Positions 5,565 to 24,064 of a DNA stretch of 64,000 nucleotides are shown piece by piece. The stretch lies in NCBI RefSeq assembly GCF_900112985.1, contig NZ_FONS01000001.1, forward strand, positions 121,730 to 185,729, read 5' to 3'. Within the stretch, counting starts at the first letter, position 1, and the number at the start of each line of letters is the position of its first letter. The notes beneath the pieces were generated by a model. The model did not search any database, had not been told where the DNA came from, and worked only from the letters and a program-made list of their open reading frames with translations. The DNA comes from Pedobacter antarcticus (lineage in GTDB: Bacteria; Bacteroidota; Bacteroidia; Sphingobacteriales; Sphingobacteriaceae). A program made the translations under genes and the position numbers.

Positions 5565-5582
5565 TTGTGATCCCGCTGGGAT
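5565..5582 (-). repeat. Left attachment site: 18-bp copy of the tRNA-Lys 3' end
   Basis: TTGTGATCCCGCTGGGAT at this place is identical to 23940-23957, which covers the acceptor stem and part of the T arm of tRNA-Lys. The match stops at both flanks. A tRNA 3'-end copy at the far side of an integrase-carrying segment is the standard footprint of tyrosine-recombinase integration. Confidence 0.85.
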
Positions 5583-5652: not shown

Positions 5653-5674
5653 GGCACCGAATTAGGCACCAGTT
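5653..5674 (+). repeat. Left pair of putative integrase arm sites
   Basis: GGCACCGA (5653) and GGCACCAGTT (5665) are 12 bp apart. The 16 bases 5660-5675 recur exactly at 23818-23833, about 110 bp inside the other end. The stretch 5583-5898 around them holds no gene. It carries these sites and the leader of the HTH gene. Confidence 0.6.
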
Positions 5675-5898: not shown

Positions 5899-6180
5899 AT
5901 GGCAATAGTGGAATTTATCACCAAAGAAGATCTTGAGAAGTTTAAGTTGGAATTATTTGCAGAACTTAGAAGACCCGGACAAAAGTTACATAAACAAAGC
6001 GAACAAAAGGAATGGTTGAAAAGCTATGAAGTTATGAAATTACTAAGTATTTCTCCTGGAACCCTACAAAGTCTGAGAAATAGTGGTTCATTGAAGTTTA
6101 ATAAAGTAGGAGGGTTAATATATTATAAATATGAGGATGTGAGCTTGTTAGTTGAGGGTAAAAATAGAGTCGTTAGATAA
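5899..6180 (+). CDS. HTH_17-type DNA-binding protein, excisionase-like
   Basis: This 93-aa protein has a charged, helical N-terminus (residues 1-38) followed by a winged helix-turn-helix of the MerR/excisionase type. EWLKSYEVMKLLSISPGTLQSLRNSGSLKFNKVGG is the family pattern (split here as EWLKSYEVMKLL and SISPGTLQSLRNSG), with the wing residues IYYKYEDV after it. In Bacteroidota islands such genes usually sit near an end and act as recombination directionality factor or as a local repressor. Here it is the first gene inside the left end, about 320 bp from the attachment repeat and facing into the island. A role with the integrase at the other end is inferred from position. DNA binding itself is well supported. 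Confidence 0.8.
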   Translation: MAIVEFITKEDLEKFKLELFAELRRPGQKLHKQSEQKEWLKSYEVMKLLSISPGTLQSLRNSGSLKFNKVGGLIYYKYEDVSLLVEGKNRVVR

Positions 6181-6527: not shown

Positions 6528-7722
6528 ATGAACAAATTTTTAATTAGATGCTCTTTTTTTGTGATCAGTCTTGGCGCTGTAATTTGTGTTTATTTCTTTT
6601 ATGCGCTCTCTGGCGCTTATGAGGTCAACGGCAAAGGAGAATGGAAAATGGATGTTACAGGGCAGGTTGGCGACTTTATAGGTGGGATCGTCGGGACGCT
6701 CTTTGCATTATCAGGAACTCTTTTGATTTATCTATCTTTCAGGGAACAGACGAATCAGAATAAGCGTGAGGCCTTTGAAGCTGCCTTTTTTGAGATGCTC
6801 AGGCTTCATAGAGAGAATGTAGAGGAAATGAGGCTCTCCAAGGAGGTTGATGGCCATGTTGAGCTTGCTGAAAACCGAAAGGTATTCCGGTTGATCTACG
6901 CTGAATTTGTAGAGTGTTACCGGGAAGTGAAAAAATTTTTTCGTAAGACCGATGATTATATTCTTCCAAAGTACAAGGTCGAATTGGAGATGATTGCCAG
7001 ACGTATTAGCGACAAGATAGATGTCAAAGAAATGGCAATGATTGACACTGCTTATTGCATTGTTTTTTTTGGAATGGGTAATGAAGGGGAACAGGTTTTA
7101 ACCCACCAGTTTCGAAAGAAGTATGATGGTATGCATTTTCGTAATTTATTAACTTAACATTAAGCTAAAGCCAAAACACTCTGATGAATTAAGATATAGG
7201 AATTTTCTTTATTTCAGAGGCTTACCTGTGACAGAGCAGCGCGCAAAGATCCGTGAACTGTATGATTTTAAGCGTAAGGCAGTCATCAAAAAACCTACGC
7301 TGTCAGCCAATGAGCTGAACTATTTAGCGCGTAATGATTATATGAAATATTATGGAGGTCATCAGCATCGTCTAGGCCATTATTTCAGGCACCTATTTCA
7401 GACATATAAATATTTACACTACCATCCAAATCTGAACATGAAGGAAAAATATTTTTACGGCAAGACACTTCGGGCTCAACTTTCTACTTATGAACAGGCA
7501 CTTCTTTTCATAAACAGTATTTCCACAGTGGGTATGAAATGGGAGCTATTGGCAGAATATAAAGAGAAAAGTGGTATGAATTTAGAACGGATTTTTAAAC
7601 TTCGGAGGGACAACCATCTGATCACTAGATATAACTTGATCAAGAATCTGCCTGGAGAAAGCTCTTTCGGCTTTAAATATAGAACCTATTACCCTTCAAT
7701 CAAATATGAATCAGAAGAATAG
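6528..7722 (+). pseudogene. Putative phage abortive infection protein (putAbiC-like), broken by one frameshift
   Basis: Two frames make one gene. The first (6528-7157) has two N-terminal membrane helices and the family hallmark GDFIGGIVGTLF with ALSGTLLIYLSF, then a helical part with FFEMLRLHRENV. The second, open from the TAA at 7150-7152 in the next frame, gives the C-terminal hallmark YYGGHQHRLGHYFRHLFQ and LRAQLSTYEQALLF. The break is at 7150-7160: frame one ends NLLT-stop while the other frame continues LNIKLKPKHSDELRYRNFLYFRG, so a single lost or gained base would join them. This family is linked to abortive infection by homology. The 7228 GTG start sometimes predicted for the second part is unlikely to be real. 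Either the gene is dead or the sequence has one base error here. Confidence 0.75.
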
Positions 7723-9432: not shown

Positions 9433-10253
9433 ATGAATAACGACAAACTAAATAAGTATATAGAAGATTTGGTTCATGCGAAAAGTATGGATCTTTCGAC
9501 TTGGAAAAAGGTCCAGTGGCAAGGAGGGCGTGTAAATGTTGAAATTGGCAATATTAAGTACGAAATTTAAGACTTCAATATTGAAACTAAGATTCTCTAT
9601 TTAGAGAAATTGCTAGAAAAAAGTTTTGTTATACAAGACAATCTGCCATCGACAGCACCTAATGTAACCTCAGACTTTAGAAGGGAACTCCAAAGTTTGC
9701 TAAGCACCTTACGGATACTCCACTAACAGGATATACAGAATGTATCATTACAGCATGGAATTAAGTTAGAAGGTGATCAATCAAAAATGAATATATCTCC
9801 GATGGCTGAAAATTTACAACCACTTATTTTCATATCATATTGCTGGGAATCTAAAGACCATGAAGATCACGTTATTAGTTTTGCGAATAAACTATCATCC
9901 TTTGGATATCATCTGGAAATAGATAAGATAATAACTCAGAGGCATTCGTCAACTCATTTTATTCAAATGATGGAAGAAGGTTTTTTCAAAAGTGATAAGG
10001 TTATTGTAATTTTATCTGAAGGATACAAAGTAAAGGCAGATAAATTTGAGGGGGGGTGGGACGCGAGTATCGAATTATACTAAGTGAAATTGATAAAATG
10101 CCAAATAAATACATTTTAGTTAGTTTTAAAGGTCGTGATAGCAAAATAATACCGAATAGTTTAAATGATAGAGATATAGTCGACGTAGGAAATGAAGGTT
10201 TTGACCGGCTCTATAGAAAGCTAAATGGACAACCTGAATATCTTTTTATCTAA
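9433..10253 (+). pseudogene. SEFIR/TIR-like signalling-domain protein, broken by two stops and a G-run shift
   Basis: A single frame from ATG 9433 has TAA at 9568-9570 and again at 9724-9726, then stays open through the SEFIR-like domain (LIFISYCWESKDHEDHV ... SDKVIVILSEGYKVKAD). In a run of seven G at 10050-10056 it shifts. With eight G the line would read FEGGVGREYRIILSEI, which is the conserved end of this domain, and run on to the stop at 10253. SEFIR domains are TIR relatives, used in bacteria as effector or adaptor modules of immune systems. The 273-aa ancestor would have a short helical N-terminus and this domain. The open part starting at 9787 and the small frame at 10056 are pieces of one gene, not two genes. 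Confidence 0.75.
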
Positions 10254-10412: not shown

Positions 10413-11639
10413 ATGATCATAATACATAATTTTCCGGCTAGCTACGGTGATACTTTTATAATAGAAATTCAAGACGCCACTTTTGATGCCGTCAATATAC
10501 TGGTCGATTGCGGGAAGGGATTCAAGTCTGGGGCACAAAAATACTTGGAAAAAATGGGTTTGGATAGAGCCCATAAGATTGATCGTTTTATAATTACCCA
10601 TTTTGATGACGACCATATTGCTGGTGCATACAATTTTCTAAAAGAAAATGGGGATCCTTTAAACCCCTCCATCATTGAAATTAAGCAGATTTGGCTTAAT
10701 ACTTTTCGTCATCTACAGTTTAAGAAGCGAAAACCTGGGCAACTTAGTGCTACTGAAACCAATAAATTAAATCTTTTCAAGTCTGCTTTCCCCAGTGTAT
10801 CTGAATCACAGGAAGAATCAGAGATTGGCGCGGCCCAAGCTCTTCTTGCTGGACAAATCATTTTTGAGAAAGGTTATGATTGGAATACCGATTTTGGCGG
10901 CCAGGCATGTATCGCACCAACCAAAATCACGATAGCCGAAAATGTTACTCTGCATTTACTTACACCGAGTGTGGAAAAATTAGAAGCTATAGAAACGTTC
11001 TTTATTAATAAGCTTAACGATGATTTTGGTTTGAACCCCACACAGGAGGATATTTTTGATGATGCATTCGAACTGTTCCTGAAAAGTAACGAGCGTCTAA
11101 AAATGGAGGAGATTGAAATTTCTGCAGGAACTAGTGAGATTTCGGTGGAAAGAATTGATCAACTTGTCAAAACAGCTGAATACACTCCAGACCTTAGTCC
11201 AGGTAATGGAAGTTCGATATCCTTTATTATAGAAACTTCACATAGGAAACTACTTTTTCTAGCAGATGCGCATGCAGAAGATGTCATCCAAGCACTTGAG
11301 AAAATTTTTACAGAATGTAAACGTCCGATTCATTTTGATGCAATCAAGATTGCACACCATGGAAGTTTTCGGAATAATAAACCTGAGTTGTTTAAATTGA
11401 TTGACAGTGATAAGTTTATTTTTTCTACGAATGGAAAACATCCGAAACATATACATCCTGATGTTGAGACAATTGCTCATATAGTATCTAGACCTCTTCC
11501 ATCTTGCTTTTCAGTAAGAACACTTTATTTCAATCATAGCTTTGTGGAGAAGCAGGTTCATTTGGCAGCCCTTGAAAAAAAGGAACTTCAGGATAAATTC
11601 AATTACAAAATTAGTATGGAAAGGGAAATCAGCATATGA
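10413..11639 (+). CDS. Metallo-beta-lactamase-fold hydrolase, first gene of the conflict operon
   Basis: An intact 408-aa protein of the ComEC/Rec2-like branch of MBL-fold hydrolases. The metal-binding motif is THFDDDHIAG with H63, D65, D67 and H68. Further ligands are likely D in FLADAHAED (about 285) and the HHGS at 315-318. These residues are all present, so a two-metal hydrolase is expected, acting on a phosphodiester, nucleotide or similar bond. It has no signal peptide and no membrane part, unlike true ComEC. Its stop overlaps the start of the protease gene (ATGA), so the two are translated together. In conflict systems MBL proteins often serve as effectors or as processors paired with proteases. 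The substrate here is unknown. Confidence 0.85.
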   Translation: MIIIHNFPASYGDTFIIEIQDATFDAVNILVDCGKGFKSGAQKYLEKMGLDRAHKIDRFIITHFDDDHIAGAYNFLKENGDPLNPSIIEIKQIWLNTFRHLQFKKRKPGQLSATETNKLNLFKSAFPSVSESQEESEIGAAQALLAGQIIFEKGYDWNTDFGGQACIAPTKITIAENVTLHLLTPSVEKLEAIETFFINKLNDDFGLNPTQEDIFDDAFELFLKSNERLKMEEIEISAGTSEISVERIDQLVKTAEYTPDLSPGNGSSISFIIETSHRKLLFLADAHAEDVIQALEKIFTECKRPIHFDAIKIAHHGSFRNNKPELFKLIDSDKFIFSTNGKHPKHIHPDVETIAHIVSRPLPSCFSVRTLYFNHSFVEKQVHLAALEKKELQDKFNYKISMEREISI

Positions 11640-12922
11640 GCCATATGCTTTCGATAAAAGCTGCAAGCTGTAAGCTTAGCTGTGGATTAAAGGAGGGGTC
11701 AGGATTTTTCGTGTCACTAGATCATGTACTTACCGCCAAGCACAATCTTGATCATGGAAATGAAATTAACGGTGAAGGCTATGGAGGGGAGATTTTTTCT
11801 TTAGAATTAGTAGATACGGATGATGATACCGATATGGTTTTACTTAAAATACAAGGGGCATATAAGAGTGGAACGTTTCTTCATATCTGTTCATTGGAGC
11901 CTATCGCTGGGATATCTTGGGAATCTTTTGGGCATCCTAAAACGGTAAATGGTCGTACTATTGGAGAAACATTGTCTGGCTCTATTAAGGACTTTGCAAA
12001 TGGAGTTAATTCTCACGATACCATACTAAATGTCGAAGGGTATAATGTTACATCTAGTGTATATCATGGCTTTTCGGGTTCGCCAGTAGTTGATTTCTAT
12101 GGAAATGCGATTGGAATGCTCCGTTTTTCTGGTAACAATAGTCTGGATGCAGTAAGTATTAAAAAGGCAGGTTCTTTCCTTGAGCGAAATGGCATTATTG
12201 TCAAAAAGGATTATCTTTTAGATTTTGGAGAATATGCTTGTAACTGTTTTTCAGGATTTGAAGAAACTCCAAAGAGAATGTGTGCTATTTATGCCGATAG
12301 ACTTCGTTCAACAATAGAGCCAAACGACATTGCCAGAGATTTATTAGGTAGACTATATTATCCACACACTAAGGGAGACCTTAATGAAATTATTTCCTTC
12401 TTAAAGAATAACCCTGAGATCAATCAAGGTCTATGGAAAGGTTGGTTGGAATTATTGAGTTACTTGTCTATGGTTACTTCGAGCAGGCCCGACTTCAACA
12501 ATATAACGGTCACCCTCACTGCTGAAAAATTTACAAAACTTTTTGGTATTAAAAGAGAAACTGCTGCTGACACAATAGATGTAAACCTCAATTTTTTCTG
12601 GACTCAAGGTACAGCTTACCTTAATATAATTAGTGATTACCTTCACAACAAGCTATTGGAAGGTATAGAGAACAATACGTGCTATATATTCAATTCTGCT
12701 GATCCACACTTCGGTAGGCGCGGACCTAAGGCAAATTTTAAGGAAAATATAGTCTTTGATATCAGCGGTGGCGAAGATGCTGGATTTCACATCGTTAAGG
12801 AAATGAATTTTGGGGTACTCAGCCTAAATGAATTATCTCAACAGGTATTGGAATGTGATAGCATTGCCAGTGCCCGTCCAAAAATCGAACAACTTTTCAT
12901 AGATGCACTCCAACATGATTAA
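11636..12922 (+). CDS. Trypsin-like serine protease with a C-terminal ABC-3C-type domain
   Basis: Residues 1-185 form a trypsin-like domain. GSGFFV is followed by LTAKH with catalytic H36, TDMVLLKI with D66, and GFSGSPVV with S147, so the His-Asp-Ser triad is complete. There is no signal peptide, so it acts inside the cell. Residues 200-428 form a second, non-protease domain (CRTSTIEPND-type helical start, later FNSADPHFGRRGP) that I take to be the coupling domain of an ABC three-component system. That name is an inference from gene order. It overlaps the MBL gene by 4 bp and the next gene by up to 20 bp. The likely picture is a protease held inactive until the SMC-like ATPase senses an invader, then cutting a cell or partner protein. 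Confidence 0.8.
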   Translation: MSHMLSIKAASCKLSCGLKEGSGFFVSLDHVLTAKHNLDHGNEINGEGYGGEIFSLELVDTDDDTDMVLLKIQGAYKSGTFLHICSLEPIAGISWESFGHPKTVNGRTIGETLSGSIKDFANGVNSHDTILNVEGYNVTSSVYHGFSGSPVVDFYGNAIGMLRFSGNNSLDAVSIKKAGSFLERNGIIVKKDYLLDFGEYACNCFSGFEETPKRMCAIYADRLRSTIEPNDIARDLLGRLYYPHTKGDLNEIISFLKNNPEINQGLWKGWLELLSYLSMVTSSRPDFNNITVTLTAEKFTKLFGIKRETAADTIDVNLNFFWTQGTAYLNIISDYLHNKLLEGIENNTCYIFNSADPHFGRRGPKANFKENIVFDISGGEDAGFHIVKEMNFGVLSLNELSQQVLECDSIASARPKIEQLFIDALQHD

Positions 12923-13451
12923 TATTTTAGATAGTGATTTTGTCATTGACAATAATCTGGTCCAATCAGAGACCCTACGTTGTTGGAAAAGACAACAGGG
13001 TGCCTTTAATATTCATTTTTTTACAAGTATACACCATTCGCAGGATGAACTGATAAGCTCATATGGGCGTATAAGAGACTATATTGCAATATATTTTCAG
13101 GGAAACTACTTAAAACTTGACATTGAAAGATGGAATATTTATCAAATTCATCTGTTAACTTTCAAAATCGATGCAGACTTTAAACAGCTGGTTGAACAGG
13201 ACAAGTTTGCAACAAGAAAAATCATAATTGATTCACTTTCCCAAGTTCCTGATGAGCATTACATCAAAGACTTGATAAACAAGCAGATGTTCCAGTTTTC
13301 TATAGAACGACGTGTCGTGAATAATTTATCTATAATGGAGGTTATCACAAAGGAAGATAAACAATTGGCAACCTATATTCAACAAATACCACCTGATAAA
13401 GATCAACTTATCAATTCACTTCTAATCAACTTTGGAGATGGCCAAAATTAA
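12903..13451 (+). CDS. Small middle component of an ABC-3C-like system
   Basis: A 182-aa protein (170 aa if ATG 12915 is used). It overlaps the protease gene at its start and the ATPase gene at its end, which is typical of a bridging subunit. The centre, WNIYQIHLLTFKID with VEQDKFATRKIII, matches my memory of middle-component proteins that link a RecF/SMC-like ATPase to its effector in ABC three-component conflict systems. No enzyme motif is seen. The protein probably sits between the ATPase and the protease as an adaptor or inhibitor. The family call is moderate; the operon position is strong. Confidence 0.65.
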   Translation: MHSNMINILDSDFVIDNNLVQSETLRCWKRQQGAFNIHFFTSIHHSQDELISSYGRIRDYIAIYFQGNYLKLDIERWNIYQIHLLTFKIDADFKQLVEQDKFATRKIIIDSLSQVPDEHYIKDLINKQMFQFSIERRVVNNLSIMEVITKEDKQLATYIQQIPPDKDQLINSLLINFGDGQN

Positions 13452-16400
13452 ACAGGTTACCATTGAAAATTTCAGAGCTTACGAGGGGATTCATGAATTC
13501 TCTTTTGTGATGTCAAAAGGACTTGCCAATCTGGTGGTTGTTTACGCACCTAATGGTTATGGAAAGACCTCTTTTTTTGATGCTATAGAATGGACATTCA
13601 GCAATAAAATAAGACGCTTTGAGAATGGGGTTCTAAAACAGGAGCTTGAAAGTAAAGATTTTGCCAGTGACGACCAGATTGTTCTGACAAATAGAACAGC
13701 TTATTTTAAAGGTGAAAAGGGAGAGGTTACCATTCTCACTGATGAGGATAAAGTAATCAAAAGAACGGTAGTGCCCAGGCAGATACCCAATACGGAAATA
13801 AAGAGCGACTACAGGGAGGTAGCACTACTTGGTGATTATAGGGCAGAAGAAATTAAGCAGTTTAGTGAGTATAATATGCTCACGCAAGATCAGATAGATT
13901 CATTTTTAAGGTTTAAGTCTCCGGAAGAAAAGTTCGAGGCTTTAAGGGAATTCTGGCCTGAAGGTAGCGAGGCTTCTTCCGTTTTTGCTACGCTTACGAA
14001 TTATGCTAGAGTACTTCGGATAAAAAATACTGAGCTCCAACACGCAGTAAATGATTTAAGTTCTAAGATTGCCAAGAATATAAATTCGGAAATAAATTTT
14101 TCCAAAGTAAATAATTGGATCAGAATTCTGAGAGAACAGGCAACTGTTTCCATATCATTACCTGATATCACTTCGGAAATTAATGACGAAGTCTATAGAG
14201 GAATTATCCAAGCCAATGAAACCTACAAATTAATTGTTGATAGCCAAATTGCAACGGCAAATTCTTCTGAGGTGAAACATAGAAATGTCATTTCTTCATG
14301 GGAAGAATATATTGCTTGGAAATCCTCAATTGACCGTTACGAAAAAGAGTTGGGAATCATTCAATCCACTTTAGCTAAGTACGAACGTATTAAGATAGTA
14401 CGAGACAATAACGAAGTTCGGACATTATCGATTAAAAAGCTGTCGACTGAAAAATCTGAGTGGGATAAATTGGACTTCTTATGGGTAGAGTTCGAGCAAG
14501 ACCTCAAGACAATTTCTACACTTCAGTCACTTTCCTTTGACCTAATTAAGGCACTGGAAGAACAGACGGATAATAAAAACCTGATTGAACAGAATCTGGC
14601 AAATGTCAATGAGGATAGGCGAGTATCTCTGGCAGAGTTAGAGGCTGAGCAGGTGATTTCATCTAAAATTGAGGTTGGGCTGCGTCAAATTGAAAAGTTG
14701 AAGATCGATATATCCGACGGGCATTCCCATCAGATGTATACAGAACTTTGCATAAATGACTTGATTTTCCAGTGCAGGCCATTGTATGAAGAAAAGAGAT
14801 TGGTTGAGGAATTGCTCAATCATTTTGATTTTTCCGAATATGACTCGGGCAATATAGAGTTGAACTTCTATATCTCTAAATTTACATCGAGAACCTCTGA
14901 TTTAGCAATTATTAAGGAACATCTCTCTGGACTTGAACAAGATATGGAGAACAGAGGTTCGTTTAACGAAAATCTTTCCAGAATGATCAAATGGGCAGAG
15001 ATACAGATAGATGAGCAACATATTTCGTCTTGCCCAATGTGTAATACGAAGTTTGATGATTTAGAAACCCTATTGAGTGCACTTAAGAATGACAAGGGAG
15101 ATGTTCTCTCCATCTCAAAGCTTGAACTTGAGTTGGAAGCACATTATTTGATAAAAAGCTATATCGAAGAGGAAATTGAAGATTCTGACAGATATCTATT
15201 GAGTTATTTCGAAACCAGATTGGATGTACTAGGTAATGAAATAGAAAATCTGGAAATTGGGGTTGGAAAGTTGGAACAAATTTCTAGGACTACGCAGGAT
15301 TCCATCGACCATGCTGGAATCGTAATTGATCAGATATTCGAAGAGCTTAATCGGAATTCTGAATTTTCTAATTACATAGATATAGACTTCAATGCGATTA
15401 GAACTAATAATCAGGAAAGTGTTAAAAGCCTGAGGCAGTTAATAAAGAGTTTGGATGAAGATCTTACCATCAAAAATTCTGAACTTAAAAATCTCAACAA
15501 CTCATTAATTGTTTCGAAAACATCTGTAGAGAACAATGAAAATCGTATTAATCTTACTAAAGCGAAAAATAACTACATAGAGACTTCTCAGCTTATTGAG
15601 AAGTTGGGCTTAAATCTTGAAGTTTTAGATCAGGCTTCGATTAAGGCACAATGTGATGAATATTTAAAGCTTATAAGTTCAGAACGCTTGACCTTGGCTG
15701 AACAAAATATAGTTATTTCTACTTTAATGGATGACCTAGGAAAAATCTCACCACCCCTGACCGAGTTGGACGCAAAATCAAAAGCCCTAGAAATTGAAAG
15801 TATTTTAACTGGTCTAAAACAATTGAAATTAACTTTTGAATCTAATTATGCTACTTTGGTAAATGGCGAGCAAGTCAGCATAGAGTTATTGCAGAGTGCA
15901 TTTGATAATATTTTGGCGAGGCAAAAACAACTCGGAAAATTAAAGGCGGACCTTGATGCGTTTGGGATTGATCTTGCCATAATAGAATCAGACGTTGAAA
16001 GAAATCGATTAAATGCGGTGCTTTTAGAGGTAAAGAGTGAGAAAGTGAGAGTTGAAAATGCATGTGGAAGGATCGAGAAAGCCAGGTCCACAACAGGGGA
16101 ATACATAACCAAGGGAATAGATGAATATTTTAACAAGGATGTTATAAATCAGATCTATGGTAAGATAGAGCCGCATCCAAAACTCACGGAAATAGAGATC
16201 AGAGCCGACAGCACGGGAAGGCAGCCCCGATTGATGATTCGTGCAAAAAGTGATTCTGAGGAATTAGCTCCAGGACTATTTTTGAGCACCGGACAAGTTA
16301 ATGTTCTATCCTTAAGTATTTTTATTGCAAGAGCATATGAAATGGGGAGTGGTAATTTTAATAGTATTTTTATGGATGATCCAGTGCAGAATATGAGTGA

Positions 16401-16581
16401 TATAAATGTGCTTTCATTTGTCGACCTTTTGAGAATACTTATCATGGACCAAGATCGTCAAGTGATGATTTCAACACATGACGAAAAATTCTTTAAACTT
16501 TTACAGCATAAATTATCTGATGATTTCTTTAAATCTAAATTTATTGAACTGAGTTCTTATGGTAAAATAAAGGACGAATAG
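13438..16581 (+). CDS. SMC/Rad50-like ATPase with central zinc hook
   Basis: A 1047-aa protein built like Rad50/SbcC. The N-terminal ATPase half has Walker A APNGYGKT (37-44). Long coiled coils lead to an exact mid-chain zinc hook CPMC (532-535), and coils return to the C-terminal half with signature STGQ (950-953), Walker B FMDD (ending D981) and the His switch STHD (1012-1015). All ATPase residues are present. The ATG at 13438 overlaps the previous stop by 14 bp. I prefer it to a TTG two codons earlier. Rad50-like ATPases of conflict operons are thought to sense foreign DNA ends or stalled replication and to switch on partner effectors, here the protease and MBL hydrolase. No Mre11-type nuclease gene is beside it, which separates it from SbcCD. 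Confidence 0.9.
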   Translation: MAKIKQVTIENFRAYEGIHEFSFVMSKGLANLVVVYAPNGYGKTSFFDAIEWTFSNKIRRFENGVLKQELESKDFASDDQIVLTNRTAYFKGEKGEVTILTDEDKVIKRTVVPRQIPNTEIKSDYREVALLGDYRAEEIKQFSEYNMLTQDQIDSFLRFKSPEEKFEALREFWPEGSEASSVFATLTNYARVLRIKNTELQHAVNDLSSKIAKNINSEINFSKVNNWIRILREQATVSISLPDITSEINDEVYRGIIQANETYKLIVDSQIATANSSEVKHRNVISSWEEYIAWKSSIDRYEKELGIIQSTLAKYERIKIVRDNNEVRTLSIKKLSTEKSEWDKLDFLWVEFEQDLKTISTLQSLSFDLIKALEEQTDNKNLIEQNLANVNEDRRVSLAELEAEQVISSKIEVGLRQIEKLKIDISDGHSHQMYTELCINDLIFQCRPLYEEKRLVEELLNHFDFSEYDSGNIELNFYISKFTSRTSDLAIIKEHLSGLEQDMENRGSFNENLSRMIKWAEIQIDEQHISSCPMCNTKFDDLETLLSALKNDKGDVLSISKLELELEAHYLIKSYIEEEIEDSDRYLLSYFETRLDVLGNEIENLEIGVGKLEQISRTTQDSIDHAGIVIDQIFEELNRNSEFSNYIDIDFNAIRTNNQESVKSLRQLIKSLDEDLTIKNSELKNLNNSLIVSKTSVENNENRINLTKAKNNYIETSQLIEKLGLNLEVLDQASIKAQCDEYLKLISSERLTLAEQNIVISTLMDDLGKISPPLTELDAKSKALEIESILTGLKQLKLTFESNYATLVNGEQVSIELLQSAFDNILARQKQLGKLKADLDAFGIDLAIIESDVERNRLNAVLLEVKSEKVRVENACGRIEKARSTTGEYITKGIDEYFNKDVINQIYGKIEPHPKLTEIEIRADSTGRQPRLMIRAKSDSEELAPGLFLSTGQVNVLSLSIFIARAYEMGSGNFNSIFMDDPVQNMSDINVLSFVDLLRILIMDQDRQVMISTHDEKFFKLLQHKLSDDFFKSKFIELSSYGKIKDE

Positions 16582-16935
16582 AAATTTCATACTTTATCTG
16601 AAATTCCAACCTCCGTGGGAGACTTCCTTTGTATATGCCGTCCTGACCTGCGGTCACCTGTTTTCAGCTGGTGGATAGGACGGGGATTGGCAATTTTTCT
16701 TCGTCGGACTTTGCCTTAATGCCCTTGAGTAGCTTATAAACTAAATAAGATAAAATTACCATAAATTACGATATGTGGAAGTTTCCCAATCCGACAAAAA
16801 GATTGTATAACTCATCCAAAGTATTATTTTACTAGATATAAAGACTTGTCTGTCTTGATGGGATTGCATGCTTTTCGATATCTGGGAATTATTTTTTAAC
16901 AATACAATTGATTACAAACACTTCGTTTTTTGTTA
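16582..16935. other. Spacer between the two defence modules, with a hairpin
   Basis: No gene. An inverted repeat CCGTCCT (16638-16644) / AGGACGG (16677-16683) encloses a second pairing CACC/GGTG, making a stem-loop 57 bp behind the SMC gene. It could be a terminator or a processed RNA, but no T run follows directly. The rest should hold the promoter of the NACHT gene. I see no clear -7 box. Confidence 0.4.
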
Positions 16936-19900
16936 ATGTATATTCGTGTTATGATAAGTGAAAATTCATACGAAAAGCTGAGCTGGGAAAAATTTGAGGA
17001 CATGTGCGTTTATTTGGCACAATCGATTTTTGATGATCCCTCATTTGAACAATATCTCAAACGGGGCAGCAAGCAACATGGGATTGATATCATTACATTT
17101 GATTCCAAGGTTGGTAAGAACTACACCATTCAATGCAAGCATATACAGTCGTTGTCAGTAAATGGACTAAAGAAAATTGTTGGGGAGTTTGAAGTCGGGA
17201 AATATCTCAGCCGGACGGCAGTTTTTGTTCTGTCAACAACTTGCGAGCTTCAGACCAAAGAGCTTAGGGATGAAATCGACCTACTGAAAGAATATTTTTT
17301 AAAGGAGTATAATATAGATTTTCGCTGTTGGGACAGAAAATTTATCGATCAGGAACTAGTCAAGCATTACCGTATCGTACACTATTTTTTTGGATCTGAG
17401 CAGGCAGAAGGCCATTGTTTTTTACCATCTTTTTCAAAAGGAACGGTTTTGCCAGTTGAGGGATTTATCGAAAGAACAGTAAGCTCCCTGGATGTTGAGG
17501 ATGACGATCCTATTTGGGGAAGAGAACGCCGAGAAAAGTCTTACAGTCTTTACGAAATCATCGTGAAAAATGCACACATCTCGAAACATATCTGTCTTTT
17601 GGCAGATGCTTATGAAGGAAAAAGCATGCTGATGAGACAATCTGCATTTCTGCTATCCAATTCCGAAATACCATTTGAAACCATATCGATTGATTTTAAG
17701 GCATTCAGCATTAGACCTATAGCTGATATCCTTAATGATCACTTTGGAGCATGGAGGTCAGTGCCAGCTAAAGATCTTGTTATATTGATAGATGGCTTGG
17801 ATGAAGTTCCAACCGATAAATTCCTAGATGCCATAACCTTTCTTCAAGAGTTCTTATCGAAGTTCTATTTTATCAATATAATTTTTTCCTGTAGAAAGCT
17901 GTTCTACAACTACTATGGGCTGAAGGATAAATTTGTGAGTGTCGATTTTTATCAGCTCAATGAACTCAATTATTTCATCTCCCAACAGTATGTCGATGAC
18001 AATTTAACTAAGAAACAGTCAGAAGACTTTAGCAATAAAATTGATAAGCTTGATGTTGGGGAGCTATTGAGACAACCATTCTATCTGGTGAATCTTGTAA
18101 AATGGTTCAGGACTTCTCCAAAAAACCTGCCAGTGGATAAGATTGGCATAGTTACCAAATTCATAGAAGAATCACTAGATGTCTCTTACTCTAGAAGACT
18201 TGCAAGGGGCAACGTGCTTCTGCAAAAGAAAGTAGCTTACAGGACTGTTTTGCAAAAATTGGCATTTTCACTGCAACTCTCTGGTTTGAATTCATGTGAT
18301 AACGATTTCATACAACAACTATTTCTAGAGGATGAAATAGAATTGTTGCAGCATAGTTCGCTTCTCTCTGTTGTTAACGGAAAATGGTCGTTCTATAATG
18401 CCTTATTCCAAGAACAACTTGCCGCCATAGCGCTGATTGATTTTGAGATGTCTGAAATCATTAAATTTGTTGCGGTTGGAAAAAAGATAAGAAAGGTTAG
18501 GACCAAATGGATACAGACGATTGCTTCGGCAATTTCGCTATTGGATGAACAAAGCGAAAAAAGGAAGAAACTTATTTCGCTGGTGGAAAATGATAACATT
18601 GAACTTCTGACATATGGCGATAGTTCCAAATTTACATCCGCATTCAGGTTGTACGTGCTGCAGTCTATTATCAAAAAATGCGTAAAACTGAAAATCAGGT
18701 TAGTAAAGGTCGGCGAAAAGGAAATCGCGAATTTTATAGGTTCTGAAAAGAATGCTGTACGATACCTGCTTGAGGTGATGTCCACTGAGACTGTATATGT
18801 CGTGAAGGTTGCTATTGCTAGAATACTAAAATTGATCCACTTGGAGCAAGAAGAATTGGAACTATTTGAAAAATTGGCAATTAATGAACTTCAGGTCCTT
18901 AATGATCCCTATTATGGTAAGATCTTAATGGACAGCCTGTGTCATTATTCTACCGACGTCAAAACCCTTTTGCCTATACTGTTCAAGCGTAAGAACCTGC
19001 TCGGGCAACATGAATTCAGAAATGGTATCTACAAGCTATTGTTGAAGAATGGGCTTTCAGAACAATATTATGATTTTGGAATTGAAGGTTTTCAGGTTCT
19101 GGTAGACTATAACAGAAGTATCAGCCACCATGGTTCTGAAAGAAAGCTGGAGGAATTTTTATTGAGCACCCGTCATTTTGAATCATCTAAAAAGCTATTC
19201 CAGCTTATGCAGACAGATTCCTGGACGAGCTTTAAGGGATTTCGAAAAGACGACATCAAAAATTTCGTTGTGAAACTGGAGGTGCAGTGTTCAGAAATTT
19301 TCATGTCCAACCCAATGATAGTATTTTCGGTCGTCAATTTTATGGAGTTTCTTGGGCGAAGATCAATTAAGGAGGAATATCGTGAGCTAAACCAATTTTT
19401 TTCAAACACCAATACAACTTTACTGGCAGTCAAAACCCTTTTGTTAAAGAACGAGCAGCATAATTATTGGGAGCTGGCAGACATTATCTCGGAAGAATGT
19501 TTTGAGCACGTTTTATGGTGCCTGGAAGAGGGCTACGTCGTTAGAAATGTTGTTGAGACGTTCATTACGAGATTACGCCATGACTCCAGGGTTAAGGAGG
19601 CGGATCAGCTGGAGACGATGCTCTTTAACGCATTTGGTAAAACCACAGCAGTTAGAGAATCGATTTACGAATTTTACCGGGATTCTGAAGAGATAAAATT
19701 TCAGAATGATTTAAAGTTCGTGCAATCCCAAAGTGCATTTAGGGAAGCTGTAGTAGCCTATTTTTATGGATTTGGAAAAAAGACCATTCCCTCGGACTCG
19801 TTATACATAGATCATGCAGATAAAAAGGAGCGGTATAAGACCGATTCCTACATCCTGCATAATTTCTTGGTGAGATATTGCAGGGATAACGAAAAGGTTC

Positions 19901-21075
19901 TGTTAAGGGATTGCCTAAAAATCATTGACAATAGCGACCATTTCGAATTTGTGAGGGCAGAATTGATATTGGATTATAACTTCAATGAAAGGCGAAAAAA
20001 GGAAGAGCAAAATCTGGTAAGAATTGCTGGCCAATATTTCTCAGATCACGTTGGAAGTGTTAATTTTTCCAACACATATTTTATGGAAGGGCAATATTTG
20101 CACTGGCGGATTAAGGAAAAGCTTCTCGGTAAACTCTTTGTCAAGTTCGGGCTTGAAGTCAAGGATGACCAGGCATTGGATCTACTATGGTTGGACAAGG
20201 ATGGTATAAAGGGAGTCGAACACAACCGTCTCAACAAGCGTTCCTCCATAGCGCAGATATTACTGGAACGATTCAGTGGCAATAAGGCACCACTTATTGA
20301 AAGGATACTGAAAAATATGTACGATGGAATAAGTTATGTTCCCGTTCTTGGCTCACATATTGGGCTTTGCGGACACCTTAAAATACATGAAGCTGCCGAT
20401 TTCATACTGGAACAGGTGAAGTCAGGAATTATTTCAAATGAAGATTACTCCGCCATAGACATCTTTTTGAAACTGGATGGGGATAAGGAGAAGTTATTAC
20501 CACTGTTGCGGACCTTTAGTAATTATGAAGATTATTTTTTTATACACCTTGTCAAACTTTTGCACATTGATTTCCAGGATGAGGTAGGAGCCATTTTGGA
20601 AAGGGGCCTATCGCAACACGGATTGAGTATTGAGAAGCAGATCGAGTTCTCAAAATATCTTTCTTCGATGGGAAACAGAACCGGTTTTACTTTTTTGATC
20701 GGACATATGCGCAAGAATAAAGTTTCTCCCTATTACACACAGAGTGGATTTGAGATTTGGAATGTAGATACCACCTGGGGGCTAGACCAGATTGAGGATC
20801 TTTTATACCTGGTAGTTGAAGAAGATAATCGAGATAGACGTTTCTATGATACACCAAAAAGTTTCTTGGTTGAACTTATAAGAGGTTTTGCGGCAAAGAG
20901 CGAACAAGACCTGCTCATCGTTGAACAATTCATCAACAAGAATATTAGGGCCCTGAAACCGAAGTTTGAATATGCAAACCACCTATCTTGGCATCTTGAA
21001 AATGCACTCGAGAATTTTAGAAATACTGAAGACGGTATAATGTCTGTCGAAAAGATCAAGGCAATTATCTATTAA
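16936..21075 (+). CDS. Mrr-like nuclease fused to NACHT/STAND NTPase (Avs/bNACHT-like)
   Basis: An intact protein of about 1379 aa. Residues 1-130 are an Mrr-type PD-(D/E)XK nuclease: GIDIITF with D51 and IQCKH with Q66 and K68. Residues 210-400 are a NACHT-type NTPase: Walker A DAYEGKS (K229, S230), Walker B VILIDGLDEV (D286, D289, E290), then the sensor-like IIFSCRK. The remaining 950 residues look like helical repeats and would form the sensor. This three-part plan (effector, NTPase switch, sensor) is that of bacterial STAND immune proteins, which oligomerise on binding a phage protein and unleash the nuclease. ATG 16951 or TTG 16930 are other possible starts. It is followed after 12 bp by the HEPN gene, so the two are probably one operon. 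Confidence 0.85.
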   Translation: MYIRVMISENSYEKLSWEKFEDMCVYLAQSIFDDPSFEQYLKRGSKQHGIDIITFDSKVGKNYTIQCKHIQSLSVNGLKKIVGEFEVGKYLSRTAVFVLSTTCELQTKELRDEIDLLKEYFLKEYNIDFRCWDRKFIDQELVKHYRIVHYFFGSEQAEGHCFLPSFSKGTVLPVEGFIERTVSSLDVEDDDPIWGRERREKSYSLYEIIVKNAHISKHICLLADAYEGKSMLMRQSAFLLSNSEIPFETISIDFKAFSIRPIADILNDHFGAWRSVPAKDLVILIDGLDEVPTDKFLDAITFLQEFLSKFYFINIIFSCRKLFYNYYGLKDKFVSVDFYQLNELNYFISQQYVDDNLTKKQSEDFSNKIDKLDVGELLRQPFYLVNLVKWFRTSPKNLPVDKIGIVTKFIEESLDVSYSRRLARGNVLLQKKVAYRTVLQKLAFSLQLSGLNSCDNDFIQQLFLEDEIELLQHSSLLSVVNGKWSFYNALFQEQLAAIALIDFEMSEIIKFVAVGKKIRKVRTKWIQTIASAISLLDEQSEKRKKLISLVENDNIELLTYGDSSKFTSAFRLYVLQSIIKKCVKLKIRLVKVGEKEIANFIGSEKNAVRYLLEVMSTETVYVVKVAIARILKLIHLEQEELELFEKLAINELQVLNDPYYGKILMDSLCHYSTDVKTLLPILFKRKNLLGQHEFRNGIYKLLLKNGLSEQYYDFGIEGFQVLVDYNRSISHHGSERKLEEFLLSTRHFESSKKLFQLMQTDSWTSFKGFRKDDIKNFVVKLEVQCSEIFMSNPMIVFSVVNFMEFLGRRSIKEEYRELNQFFSNTNTTLLAVKTLLLKNEQHNYWELADIISEECFEHVLWCLEEGYVVRNVVETFITRLRHDSRVKEADQLETMLFNAFGKTTAVRESIYEFYRDSEEIKFQNDLKFVQSQSAFREAVVAYFYGFGKKTIPSDSLYIDHADKKERYKTDSYILHNFLVRYCRDNEKVLLRDCLKIIDNSDHFEFVRAELILDYNFNERRKKEEQNLVRIAGQYFSDHVGSVNFSNTYFMEGQYLHWRIKEKLLGKLFVKFGLEVKDDQALDLLWLDKDGIKGVEHNRLNKRSSIAQILLERFSGNKAPLIERILKNMYDGISYVPVLGSHIGLCGHLKIHEAADFILEQVKSGIISNEDYSAIDIFLKLDGDKEKLLPLLRTFSNYEDYFFIHLVKLLHIDFQDEVGAILERGLSQHGLSIEKQIEFSKYLSSMGNRTGFTFLIGHMRKNKVSPYYTQSGFEIWNVDTTWGLDQIEDLLYLVVEEDNRDRRFYDTPKSFLVELIRGFAAKSEQDLLIVEQFINKNIRALKPKFEYANHLSWHLENALENFRNTEDGIMSVEKIKAIIY

Positions 21076-21087
21076 TAAGAATTCCAT

Positions 21088-22281
21088 ATGAACAGCACGA
21101 TAAATGAGCTTTTACCAATGATCAAGATAGGACTTGAGAACCAATCCTTATTTTCAGCTGGTTCCAAAAATATTCCGGTAACAAAGATAGAACTGCTTAA
21201 CGTTGATACAATCTCAGCAACCATCGTTACCGAGTTTTCCAGGATTAATGATGTGAAGATGGAAGTGGCGACAGTTATCGGTTTTTTTAATGGTTTTTTT
21301 CGAAATGACCATTTGCATCTTAAGATTGCGAACTATGCCGTAAGTATCCTTGATGTAAATGGAGAAGAGTTGCTCTATGCAATATGCTCGAAAAGTAATG
21401 CTGAGCTTCTTGGGAAAAGTAATGCGTTGGATTGGCTAAGAACAGTCTATTTTCAGGAAAACACATCAGATTATAGACTTCAACGTGCAAAATTGATAAT
21501 TTCAGAGATTGAAAATGGCCTCAGGTTCGCGATAAAGGAGGTGTTAATGAACGTTTATGGTGAAAATTGGTGGTTGGACAAGATTGATGAGAAGATAAGG
21601 TCTAGTGTAGATGATGTTTATTTAAGCCAGTTTGGTGAAACGATTTCGCAAGGCAACATACTCATCGATTATACATTCACGATGCATCTAAAAAAAATAA
21701 TTCTAGTCCACTGGAAAGAGTTTTCGAAATTTTTCATTAGCAAACGTGACTTCGAATCTCAAGTGGAAAAATTAAATCTTATTAGGCGTGAAGAGGCACA
21801 TAACAGGCCTATCACTCTTTTAAACATCATCGATCTGGAAGAGATACACCAGAGGTTGCTAGCAAAGCTACTCGACATATATCCATCGCTTACCTCCATG
21901 TATATGGTTGAAAACTGGAGGATAAAAATTAGCTCGATTTCTTTGGTCAGGCCGAAAACCGATAATTTTTCTGAACGATTTTCCAATGAGACCAATGATG
22001 TAGTAAAAATCAAATTGATAATCGAACATACTGAAAATCTAATTAGCTATATAAATGAAGTCATCACACTGCTTAATTCCATTCCTGTTCCTCCCCAGAA
22101 AAGTGGGCGACATAAAACCTTGGTAGGTCTATATGAAACCCATCGAGAGCTGGAGGAAGAAATACTCGTTAACATTCACGGAAATAAACTGGCTGCTGCC
22201 GTAGCTTTCCAGGGTAAAGTAGCTTCGCATGATCTTATTATAAAAGAATTTATAAATGATTTTCTTAACCAAGAAATATAG
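21088..22281 (+). CDS. HEPN-domain protein (Swt1-type), partner of the NACHT nuclease
   Basis: A 397-aa protein. Residues 1-120 form a mixed alpha/beta N-terminal domain I do not recognise. Residues 140-245 look like a HEPN domain of the Swt1 type: helices around ENGLRFAIKEVL and HWKEFSKFF, then the R-x4-H motif RREEAHNR with R233 and H238. R-x4-6-H is the active site of HEPN RNases, so RNA cleavage is possible. The C-terminal part is helical (ETHRELEEEILVNIHGNKL). It starts 12 bp after the NACHT gene with no terminator between. It may be a second toxic effector, or an RNA-sensing or regulatory partner. I know of no described system with exactly this pair, but I could not search. Confidence 0.7.
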   Translation: MNSTINELLPMIKIGLENQSLFSAGSKNIPVTKIELLNVDTISATIVTEFSRINDVKMEVATVIGFFNGFFRNDHLHLKIANYAVSILDVNGEELLYAICSKSNAELLGKSNALDWLRTVYFQENTSDYRLQRAKLIISEIENGLRFAIKEVLMNVYGENWWLDKIDEKIRSSVDDVYLSQFGETISQGNILIDYTFTMHLKKIILVHWKEFSKFFISKRDFESQVEKLNLIRREEAHNRPITLLNIIDLEEIHQRLLAKLLDIYPSLTSMYMVENWRIKISSISLVRPKTDNFSERFSNETNDVVKIKLIIEHTENLISYINEVITLLNSIPVPPQKSGRHKTLVGLYETHRELEEEILVNIHGNKLAAAVAFQGKVASHDLIIKEFINDFLNQEI

Positions 22282-22431: not shown

Positions 22432-23715
22432 CTAATTATCTTTTCTTAATTCTCCATTGTCATCAAATAATATACTTTTCGCATCTTTCATTTTCTTGCT
22501 AATTCTGCTTTTCTTTACTCTGGCATATCTTTGAGTAGTGCGAATATTTTTATGCCCTAGCATTTTGCTCACACCCTCCAATGGAAAGTTCAAAACATTC
22601 AGCATTATATCTGCGAAGATATGACGTGCAAGATGACTATTTAGCGGTTTTCCAATGTTGCATATTTCAGATAATTCTTTTAAATAGGTGTTGTACCTGA
22701 AATTACTGTTTACAGGAATTAATTTGTTGTAAATTTTACAATACTTATCGTTCTTATATTTCTCAATTAGTTCTGCGACAATTGGAAGTATGGGCACCAT
22801 TTCTGCAACTTTTGTTTTTCCACGTTCTTTGATCAGCCATGGTTCGTTTTGCGGTCCGACGTTAACAATGTGGTCCTTACTTAGGTTATAGATATCCTGA
22901 TAAGCGAATCCGGTGAAGCATTGGAATATGAATGCGTCTCTCACCTTACCTATACGTTCAATGCTGATTTTTTTTCGCCACAGCTTTTCTACATCAAAAA
23001 TTTCAAGAGGCATTATCTCTGGGTCTTCCGACCCACATTTAAATTTTTGAAGTGGATTCTTTGCAATCCACTGATTAGCCTCCGCTACATTTAATATCTG
23101 CTTCAAATTTTTGATCTGTTTCATTGCAGCCGGATCTTTTAGTGCAGGAACTCTTTTTACGGCAAGGAACTTATAGAATTTCTGTGCGAATGAATACTGA
23201 ATAGATGATAATTCAATGTCATTGGCTTTAAACTCAAATCTTAGAAATTCAATTATTTTCTTCTTTGTTGCTTTCCATTGTTTTAACGTTTCATTCGACC
23301 TTAGGTTTTTTTCTACCAGTTCAGCAAAATCATTGATGTGGATATTGGTTAACTCCAGTAATTGAGGAATTTCTTGCTCTATTTTGTTATTGTCGTTTTC
23401 CATTGGAAAATTCTAGAATACATTTTTCAGCATTATTGGTGTGACATCATCAAATTTGGTTTTGAGTACCGTAAAATTAATTTCCAAGGAACTCTCGATG
23501 TGATTGAGTGCTGAATTGATTTTCTTTAAATTGATAGATCCTATGACCTTTTTGGTTTTAACGTCCCATTCCGATAGATGTACTTTTTGTGAGGTAGAAA
23601 ACTCTGCATCTTTTCCATCTATAGATATTCTACAGATAATAGGTGCAAAGCCTTTAGAATCGGCCTTTGATTTACGGTGCCAGAAAAGGATTTTAAGGGT
23701 TTGGTTACTTTTCAT
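22432..23715 (-). pseudogene. Island tyrosine integrase, interrupted by one amber codon
   Basis: One frame from ATG 23715 to 22432 encodes a normal-size Bacteroidota integrase of about 427 aa, but codon 101 is TAG (23413-23415). Before it lies the arm-binding domain (LKILFWHRKSKADSKGFAPI and EFSTSQKVHLSEWD, each family-typical). After it come the core-binding domain and the catalytic domain with HLARH (box II His and Arg), GHKNIRTTQRY (His and nucleophile Tyr), while box I reads FTGFAYQDI without the usual Arg, as in CTnDOT-type integrases. A restart at ATG 23403 would give a 323-aa protein lacking arm binding. The gene sits beside the attachment site in tRNA-Lys. It may be dead, or rescued by readthrough or by another integrase. 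Confidence 0.85.
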
Positions 23716-23791
23716 TTCTCAATCTTTTGGTAAAACATTTTGTTTGTTTTCAGATTGTTCTTCAGTACTTTAGATCAATTCGATCAGGTAT

Positions 23792-23844
23792 GACTGGTGC
23801 CCAAATTTACCAACTAAAATTAGGCACCAGTTAGGGCACCAGTT
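23792..23844. repeat. Right cluster of putative integrase arm sites
   Basis: GGCACCAGTT occurs at 23823-23832 and 23835-23844 (12 bp apart, same spacing as the left pair), and an inverted 9/10 copy lies at 23792-23801. They lie 96-150 bp inside the right attachment repeat and upstream of the integrase gene. Confidence 0.65.
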
Positions 23845-23915
23845 GTAGTGGTTTAAGATGGTTTGAAATGACTTATTATTTTTTCGGATTGCGGTTTAAA
23901 ATATCTTTTAAACAG

Positions 23916-23941
23916 AAAAGGCGCAATCTCTTGCGCCTTTT
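23916..23941 (-). terminator. tRNA-Lys terminator supplied by the island
   Basis: AAAAGGCGCAA (23916-23926) and TTGCGCCTTTT (23931-23941) pair perfectly around a 4-base loop, directly behind the tRNA 3' end on the minus strand. It replaces the hairpin now stranded at 5507-5552. Confidence 0.75.
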
Positions 23942-23957
23942 GTGATCCCGCTGGGAT
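23940..23957 (-). repeat. Right attachment site within tRNA-Lys
   Basis: Identical to 5565-5582 (18 bp). It covers the discriminator, the acceptor 3' strand and the start of the T stem, so the tRNA gene stays intact after insertion. Confidence 0.85.
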
Positions 23958-24015
23958 TCGAACCCAGGACCACTACATTAAAAGTGTAATGCTCTACCAG
24001 CTGAGCTACGGAATC
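23943..24015 (-). tRNA. tRNA-Lys (anticodon TTT)
   Basis: A 73-base cloverleaf on the minus strand. The acceptor GATTCCG pairs with CGGGATC (one G-T pair), then discriminator A. The D arm is GCTC...GAGC, the anticodon loop CTTTTAA gives UUU, and the T loop is GTTCGAATC. CCA is not encoded. It is the integration target of the island on its left. Confidence 0.97.
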
Positions 24016-24064
24016 ATCCTTTAAATTTCAACGATTTTGACAACCGTTTTCCTTTATTGTGATG

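Follow-up and report, generated by a model that had tools for sequence, protein, structure and literature searches.

A nonsense codon at the arm/core border has probably inactivated the integrase of a tRNA-Lys defence island in Pedobacter antarcticus

We analysed a stretch of 64,000 nucleotides from Pedobacter antarcticus, here referred to as the window, which is part of contig 24 of a draft assembly of 25 contigs (genome G000). The window contains an intact tRNA-Lys(TTT) gene, and 18 bp of its 3' end recur at 5565-5582. Because these 18-bp repeats (5565-5582 and 23940-23957) mark the two ends, the island between them is about 18.4 kb long. It has the form of a tRNA-integrated island, flanked by direct repeats of the tRNA 3' end and with an integrase gene beside the tRNA, starting 227 bp from it. 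The features of the island ends and of the integrase are the following.

5565..5582: distal att core of the island, 18 bp, same sequence as 23940-23957
5653..5671: pair of putative arm-type sites near the distal att core, the copy at 5665 exact and that at 5653 with a single difference, arranged as in G130
5899..6180, plus strand: HTH_17 protein beside the distal att site
22432..23403, minus strand: core ORF, 323 aa, with core-binding (PF13102) and catalytic (PF00589) domains by Pfam; possible restart ATG at 23401-23403
23413..23415, minus strand: in-frame TAG, codon 101 of the integrase frame when read through
23413..23715, minus strand (stop included): arm-domain ORF, 100 aa, Arm-DNA-bind_5 (PF17293, Pfam E 2.6e-10)
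23795..23841: TGGTGCC at 23795 and GGCACCA at 23823 and 23835, three putative arm-type sites retained in relatives
23940..23957: att core on the tRNA side, 18 bp, same sequence as 5565-5582
23942..24015, minus strand: tRNA-Lys (TTT), intact, the integration site

We infer an excisionase-like role for the HTH_17 protein. The tyrosine integrase frame comprises 427 codons on the minus strand, from an ATG at 23715 to the natural TAG at 22432-22434, and the TAG at codon 101 is its sole internal stop when this codon is read as a residue. As the preliminary description had stated, this one codon parts the arm from the rest of the integrase, with the same frame on both sides. The two ORFs are each recognised separately by Pfam: the arm ORF, scored alone, matches above the cut-off only the arm DNA-binding domain (residues 13-90), while the core-binding and catalytic domains occupy residues 134-226 and 268-403. 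An AlphaFold2 model of the read-through protein, built from 4 sequences, has a mean pLDDT of 49.9 and is usable for the arm only (block means of 74-88 over residues 1-100), being too poor beyond it for fold searches. In this model the last arm helix ends at residue 101 and the next begins at 116, which would place the TAG at the arm end of the linker. The Pfam domains and the modelled helices together confirm the earlier claim that the break falls at the predicted arm/core border. The position of the stop by itself is weak evidence, since 18 of the 181 single-substitution nonsense opportunities in one unbroken homolog (L012) and 13 of 195 in another (L011) also fall at codons 90-133.

By a 38-row alignment (in which L013 and L019 are apparently one sequence from two collections), the window copy retains the catalytic residues H361, R364, H388 and Y397, and both its ORFs are otherwise open. 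Among the characters of IntCTnDOT-type integrases, the gene possesses an arm-binding domain of the Bacteroidota type (PF17293, E 2.6e-10) and core-binding and catalytic domains with H-x-x-R, H and Tyr; its arm and catalytic domains do not lie in one polypeptide, owing to the TAG at codon 101. It is a broken copy of the IntCTnDOT-type tyrosine recombinase family.

The cargo of the island includes the following genes.

6528..7722, plus strand: frameshifted AbiC-like gene, now in two ORFs (6528-7157 and 7228-7722)
9787..10253, plus strand: SEFIR fragments in two frames, jointly matching positions 34-186 of the 412-position bSEFIR profile
10413..16581, plus strand: Lamassu module
10413-11639, plus strand: MBL-fold LmuA of the Lamassu module
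11636-12922, plus strand: trypsin-like LmuA of the Lamassu module
12903-13451, plus strand: LmuC of the Lamassu module
13432-16581, plus strand: SMC-like LmuB of the Lamassu module

Part of this cargo appears to be decaying, with the AbiC-like gene frameshifted and the SEFIR gene partial. Contig 20 of this genome carries a paralog of the AbiC-like gene whose frame stays open for 400 codons and to which the two window pieces are 91% and 89% identical; a gene in G107 has an open frame of 405 (77% and 80%). Lamassu systems pairing an MBL nuclease with a trypsin-like protease are outlined in PMC12799240; the window module is alike in having the MBL gene directly upstream of the protease LmuA, followed by LmuC and LmuB. 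Moreover, the interval 16930-22281 encodes a 1381-aa protein without a confident Pfam match (a weak one to Mrr_cat_2, E 0.047), and after it a protein whose match to Swt1-like HEPN falls below the threshold. These two neighbours are possibly an undescribed defence pair.

Upstream of the integrase, TGGTGCC is found as two direct copies and one inverted copy, and two further tandem copies of this repeat lie at the distal ends of both the window island and the G130 island. The three repeats lie no more than about 150 bp from the att core at 23940, and the two others are near 5565. As TGGTGCC occurs 11 times in the window on both strands, about 0.04 copies would be expected per 226 bp. These arrays at both island ends are probably arm-type sites. 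All three repeats are exact in 14 of the 17 upstream regions compared (the window and 16 homologs); L012 is without the third repeat, L062 without one of the first two, and L030, the integrase locus of G042, has none. At the same alignment positions G042, a relative with a divergent integrase, carries CGGTTACC, CGGTTACC and GGTAACCG, which suggests that the sites change with the arm domain. A testable by-product of this analysis is that putative arm-type sites, nearly fixed in their spacing, precede a group of Pedobacter-type tRNA-Lys integrases, and that in the contrasting G042 a divergent integrase goes with another repeat sequence at equal spacing.

The nearest integrase homologs in Pedobacter, those of P. 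ureilyticus (L011, 92% identical) and P. cryotolerans (L012, 89%), are both unbroken; these two and a 63% homolog have a sense codon at the position of the window's TAG and are stop-free. Like the window gene, L011 lies beside a tRNA-Lys with all three repeats; in L012 two of the three repeats are exact (438 bp upstream compared). Both differ from the window gene in being free of stops. No blastn match to the window island cargo was found in the 10 kb beyond the L011 gene. Identity to L011 across 22442-24022 is mosaic, for the arm part has 8 differences in 300 nt and the core 129 in 969 nt, and upstream identity is 97.4% over 308 columns. This pattern in the sequence suggests past recombination within the integrase gene.

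We surveyed the genus by scoring the best 12 candidates per genome and found matches at E <= 1e-90 in 21 of 145 genomes, this one included. Among the 26 matches listed, 19 are full-length and stop-free, including the two closest; the other seven (the window copy, G132, G042, G012, two in G127, and G138:C28) are broken or partial. The wider surveys covered 399 genomes of the family, 400 of the order and 395 of the class, with the best 4 candidates per genome scored, and yielded additional matches, those listed for the order being almost the same as those listed for the family. A scan of viral_contigs found no relative of the integrase.

In G042, likewise beside a tRNA-Lys, a TAA interrupts an otherwise open frame one column ahead of the window's stop (alignment position 100); a tblastn search had suggested the same column as in the window, and the multiple alignment placed it one column earlier. 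G127 has a linker frameshift at a run of A, at about 111. The lesion of G132 is at 87, and Arg364 is lost as well. The genome of G127 is a single contig and holds two integrases of the same type, at C1:1510149 and 1759038 (L036/L062 and L026), each frameshifted. Comparison with homologs had been proposed as a way to recognise a naturally split integrase. The same split is not kept in relatives, and the nearest parallel is that of G042, one column away; G042 and the linker frameshift of G127 speak for such a split, and the lesions found along the whole gene in the survey speak against it.

In the matches listed, 14 other homologs carry a single lesion, at about 43, 55, 55, 58, 87, 100, 111, 169, 188, 206, 346, 370, 371 and 394, the positions of frameshifts and truncations being approximate. 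Two of the 14 fall at 90-133 (1.45 expected, p 0.43), three at 87-133 (1.55 expected, p 0.20), and seven break before 134 (p 0.11). Not counted were G226 with its two lesions, G012 with many, G138:C28, whose front is missing, this genome's other two wrecks (L002; L005/L007/L008), G432 and G192:C1:368933, in which the stop lies at the natural end, and three genes truncated by contig ends (G444, G718:C42 and G718:C58). The arm/core border as a hot spot overall was thus rejected: lesions in the matches listed occur all along the gene, with a border count near chance. Among the genus matches at E <= 1e-90, three of the four other single lesions are near the border (87, 100 and about 111; the fourth is at about 43), in a subset that was chosen after seeing the data. 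Two weaker-matching genes of the same genus (G142 and G130) break elsewhere, at about 55 and 169. The border may be a tolerated break point among the closest relatives, a possibility that we keep because of these three lesions in four and the G042 TAA one column away.

We then consider the signs of decay. The preliminary description held that apart from the stop all else was normal, which is true of the two ORFs in that they are otherwise open; T366I and D381G at conserved columns and two cargo genes that look broken tell against it. T366I lies beside HxxR in a column with T in 36 of 38 rows (L012, which has no stop, has P), and at the column of D381G the other 37 of 38 aligned rows have D or E. 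These two replacements, as read from the alignment, suggest relaxed constraint. On the window branch, codons 220-427 show 12 replacement to 8 silent changes against 6 to 18 in the two closest copies together (Fisher p 0.03, with the cut at codon 220 chosen after seeing the data); for the whole gene with the stop left out, the ratios are 14:9 and 15:25, and the excess is not significant (p 0.11). The window copy departs from the common residue at just one of 121 near-invariant columns, that of T366I, which is no more than in several unbroken relatives. Column 101 itself has 10 different residues in the 37 other aligned rows.

The state of related loci in the genome was also surveyed. Of the four tRNA-Lys(TTT) genes found, three lie within 2 kb of an integrase of the window's type, broken in each case. 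The two integrases besides the window's lie about 0.25 and 1.7 kb from their tRNA and have several frameshifts or stops each; they are wrecked integrases at G000:C24:117905-117977 (L002/L066) and G000:C15:313038-313110 (L005/L148), given by their tRNA positions. Around the fourth tRNA, no such integrase is present in 10 kb (C15:150000-160000). An intact close homolog able to act in trans was not found in the genome, where other matches are 26-31% identical or wrecks.

Taken together, we consider with a probability of about 0.83 that a nonsense mutation inactivated an IntCTnDOT-type integrase, that the island stays fixed, that the integrase and part of the cargo are decaying, and that the stop lies in the linker by chance. 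Events of this kind, in which a decaying integrase gene acquires a nonsense mutation, are known. Under this reading, ordinary translation would end after the arm domain, and a core protein, if made, would start at the ATG three codons past the TAG and be without the domain expected to bind arm sites. The N-terminal domain of lambda Int binds arm sites, and the protein bridges these to core sites (PMC4880445); in PMC8138268, mobile-element integrases are said to have acquired an arm-binding domain that is called essential for mobility. By analogy with the family, the split of arm from core should therefore stop regulated integration and excision, and the island should remain fixed in the chromosome. 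The stop itself would have fallen by chance in a weakly conserved linker. The earlier suggestion that a loss has fixed the island where it is agrees with the unbroken closest homologs, the broken cargo, the C-terminal replacement excess and the failure to find an intact close homolog. Counted against inactivation are the two open ORFs with H-R-H-Y kept and a near restart ATG, the change at T366 in the stop-free L012, the location of three of the four closest-relative lesions at 87 to about 111, and the single deviation among near-invariant columns together with the non-significant whole-gene excess.

The alternatives are all of low probability. One is that the two ORFs are translated separately, the core restarting at 23403, so that the arm peptide occupies the arm sites and the core carries out cleavage and joining, or directionality is changed. 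The separate N-domain of lambda Int stimulates its C-terminal domain, which counts for this idea, as do the in-frame ATG three codons past the stop, the open ORFs with their catalytic H, R, H and Y, the putative arm sites remaining at both island ends, the otherwise open frame of G042 with its TAA one column away, and the linker frameshift of G127. The truncated restart product proposed earlier does have a possible start codon, but the Met is present in only two of 38 aligned rows, the window and the stop-free L012, and therefore did not arise as an adaptation to the stop. In G042 the first in-frame ATG, GTG or TTG comes 34 codons past its stop, G132 is also without Arg364, the split is absent from the closest relatives, lesions elsewhere are equally common in the survey (matches listed), and T366I and D381G suggest relaxed constraint. 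Restart of an arm-less core is possible in the window by its sequence, yet it is not a conserved design, and we regard separate translation as improbable.

We likewise give little weight to the idea that the stop arose from faulty sequencing or assembly or is a variant present in the culture. A single base in a draft assembly of 25 contigs would suit this explanation; the change is a substitution and not a homopolymer indel, and it is accompanied by other signs of decay. It is about as improbable that the border is a preferred break point in the tRNA-Lys integrase subfamily, where the arm is lost in one step and the core can still be made, so that a two-way integrase becomes a recombinase independent of the arm, or a protein that only binds core sites, and keeps the defence island in place. 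If this were true, 101 (window), 100 (G042), 87 (G132) and about 111 (G127) would be independent cases; the parallels of G042 and G127 keep this reading alive and do not establish it. Readthrough of the TAG to yield some full-length integrase, also raised earlier, fits a single in-frame stop with open frame on either side and is extremely unlikely: no anticodon CTA was found among 53 typed tRNAs (150 of 294 candidates scored, an incomplete set without tRNA-Ile), TAG is not avoided, as it ends 9 of the 34 ORFs of at least 200 aa picked from the window (antisense ORF 45948-46577 left out), the integrase included, and there is no conserved readthrough signal because the closest relatives have no stop and G042 has TAA at another column.

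If inactivation is the right reading, the locus offers a small and clear case of a mobile anti-phage defence island that loses its mover and becomes part of the chromosome. In a literature search at the level of titles and abstract openings, we found no account of this island, nor of an integrase of this type split between arm and core. In SSV-type integrases of archaea, the att site is inside the integrase gene, and the pieces end at the two ends of the element. These integrases split on integration (PMC8371274) and resemble the window in having an integrase in two pieces; unlike them, the window has its att site in tRNA-Lys and its integrase pieces adjacent. The closer comparison is with the IntCTnDOT-type (Arm-DNA-bind_5, Phage_int_SAM_5 and Phage_integrase), with which the window shares the three domains, the catalytic H-R-H-Y and arm-site-like repeats flanking the core site. 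Its Box I stretch, FTGFAYQDI, is without Arg, as PMC8138268 reports for the CTnDOT integrase. Unlike in the IntCTnDOT-type, the coding frame in the window is cut between the arm and the core-binding domain.
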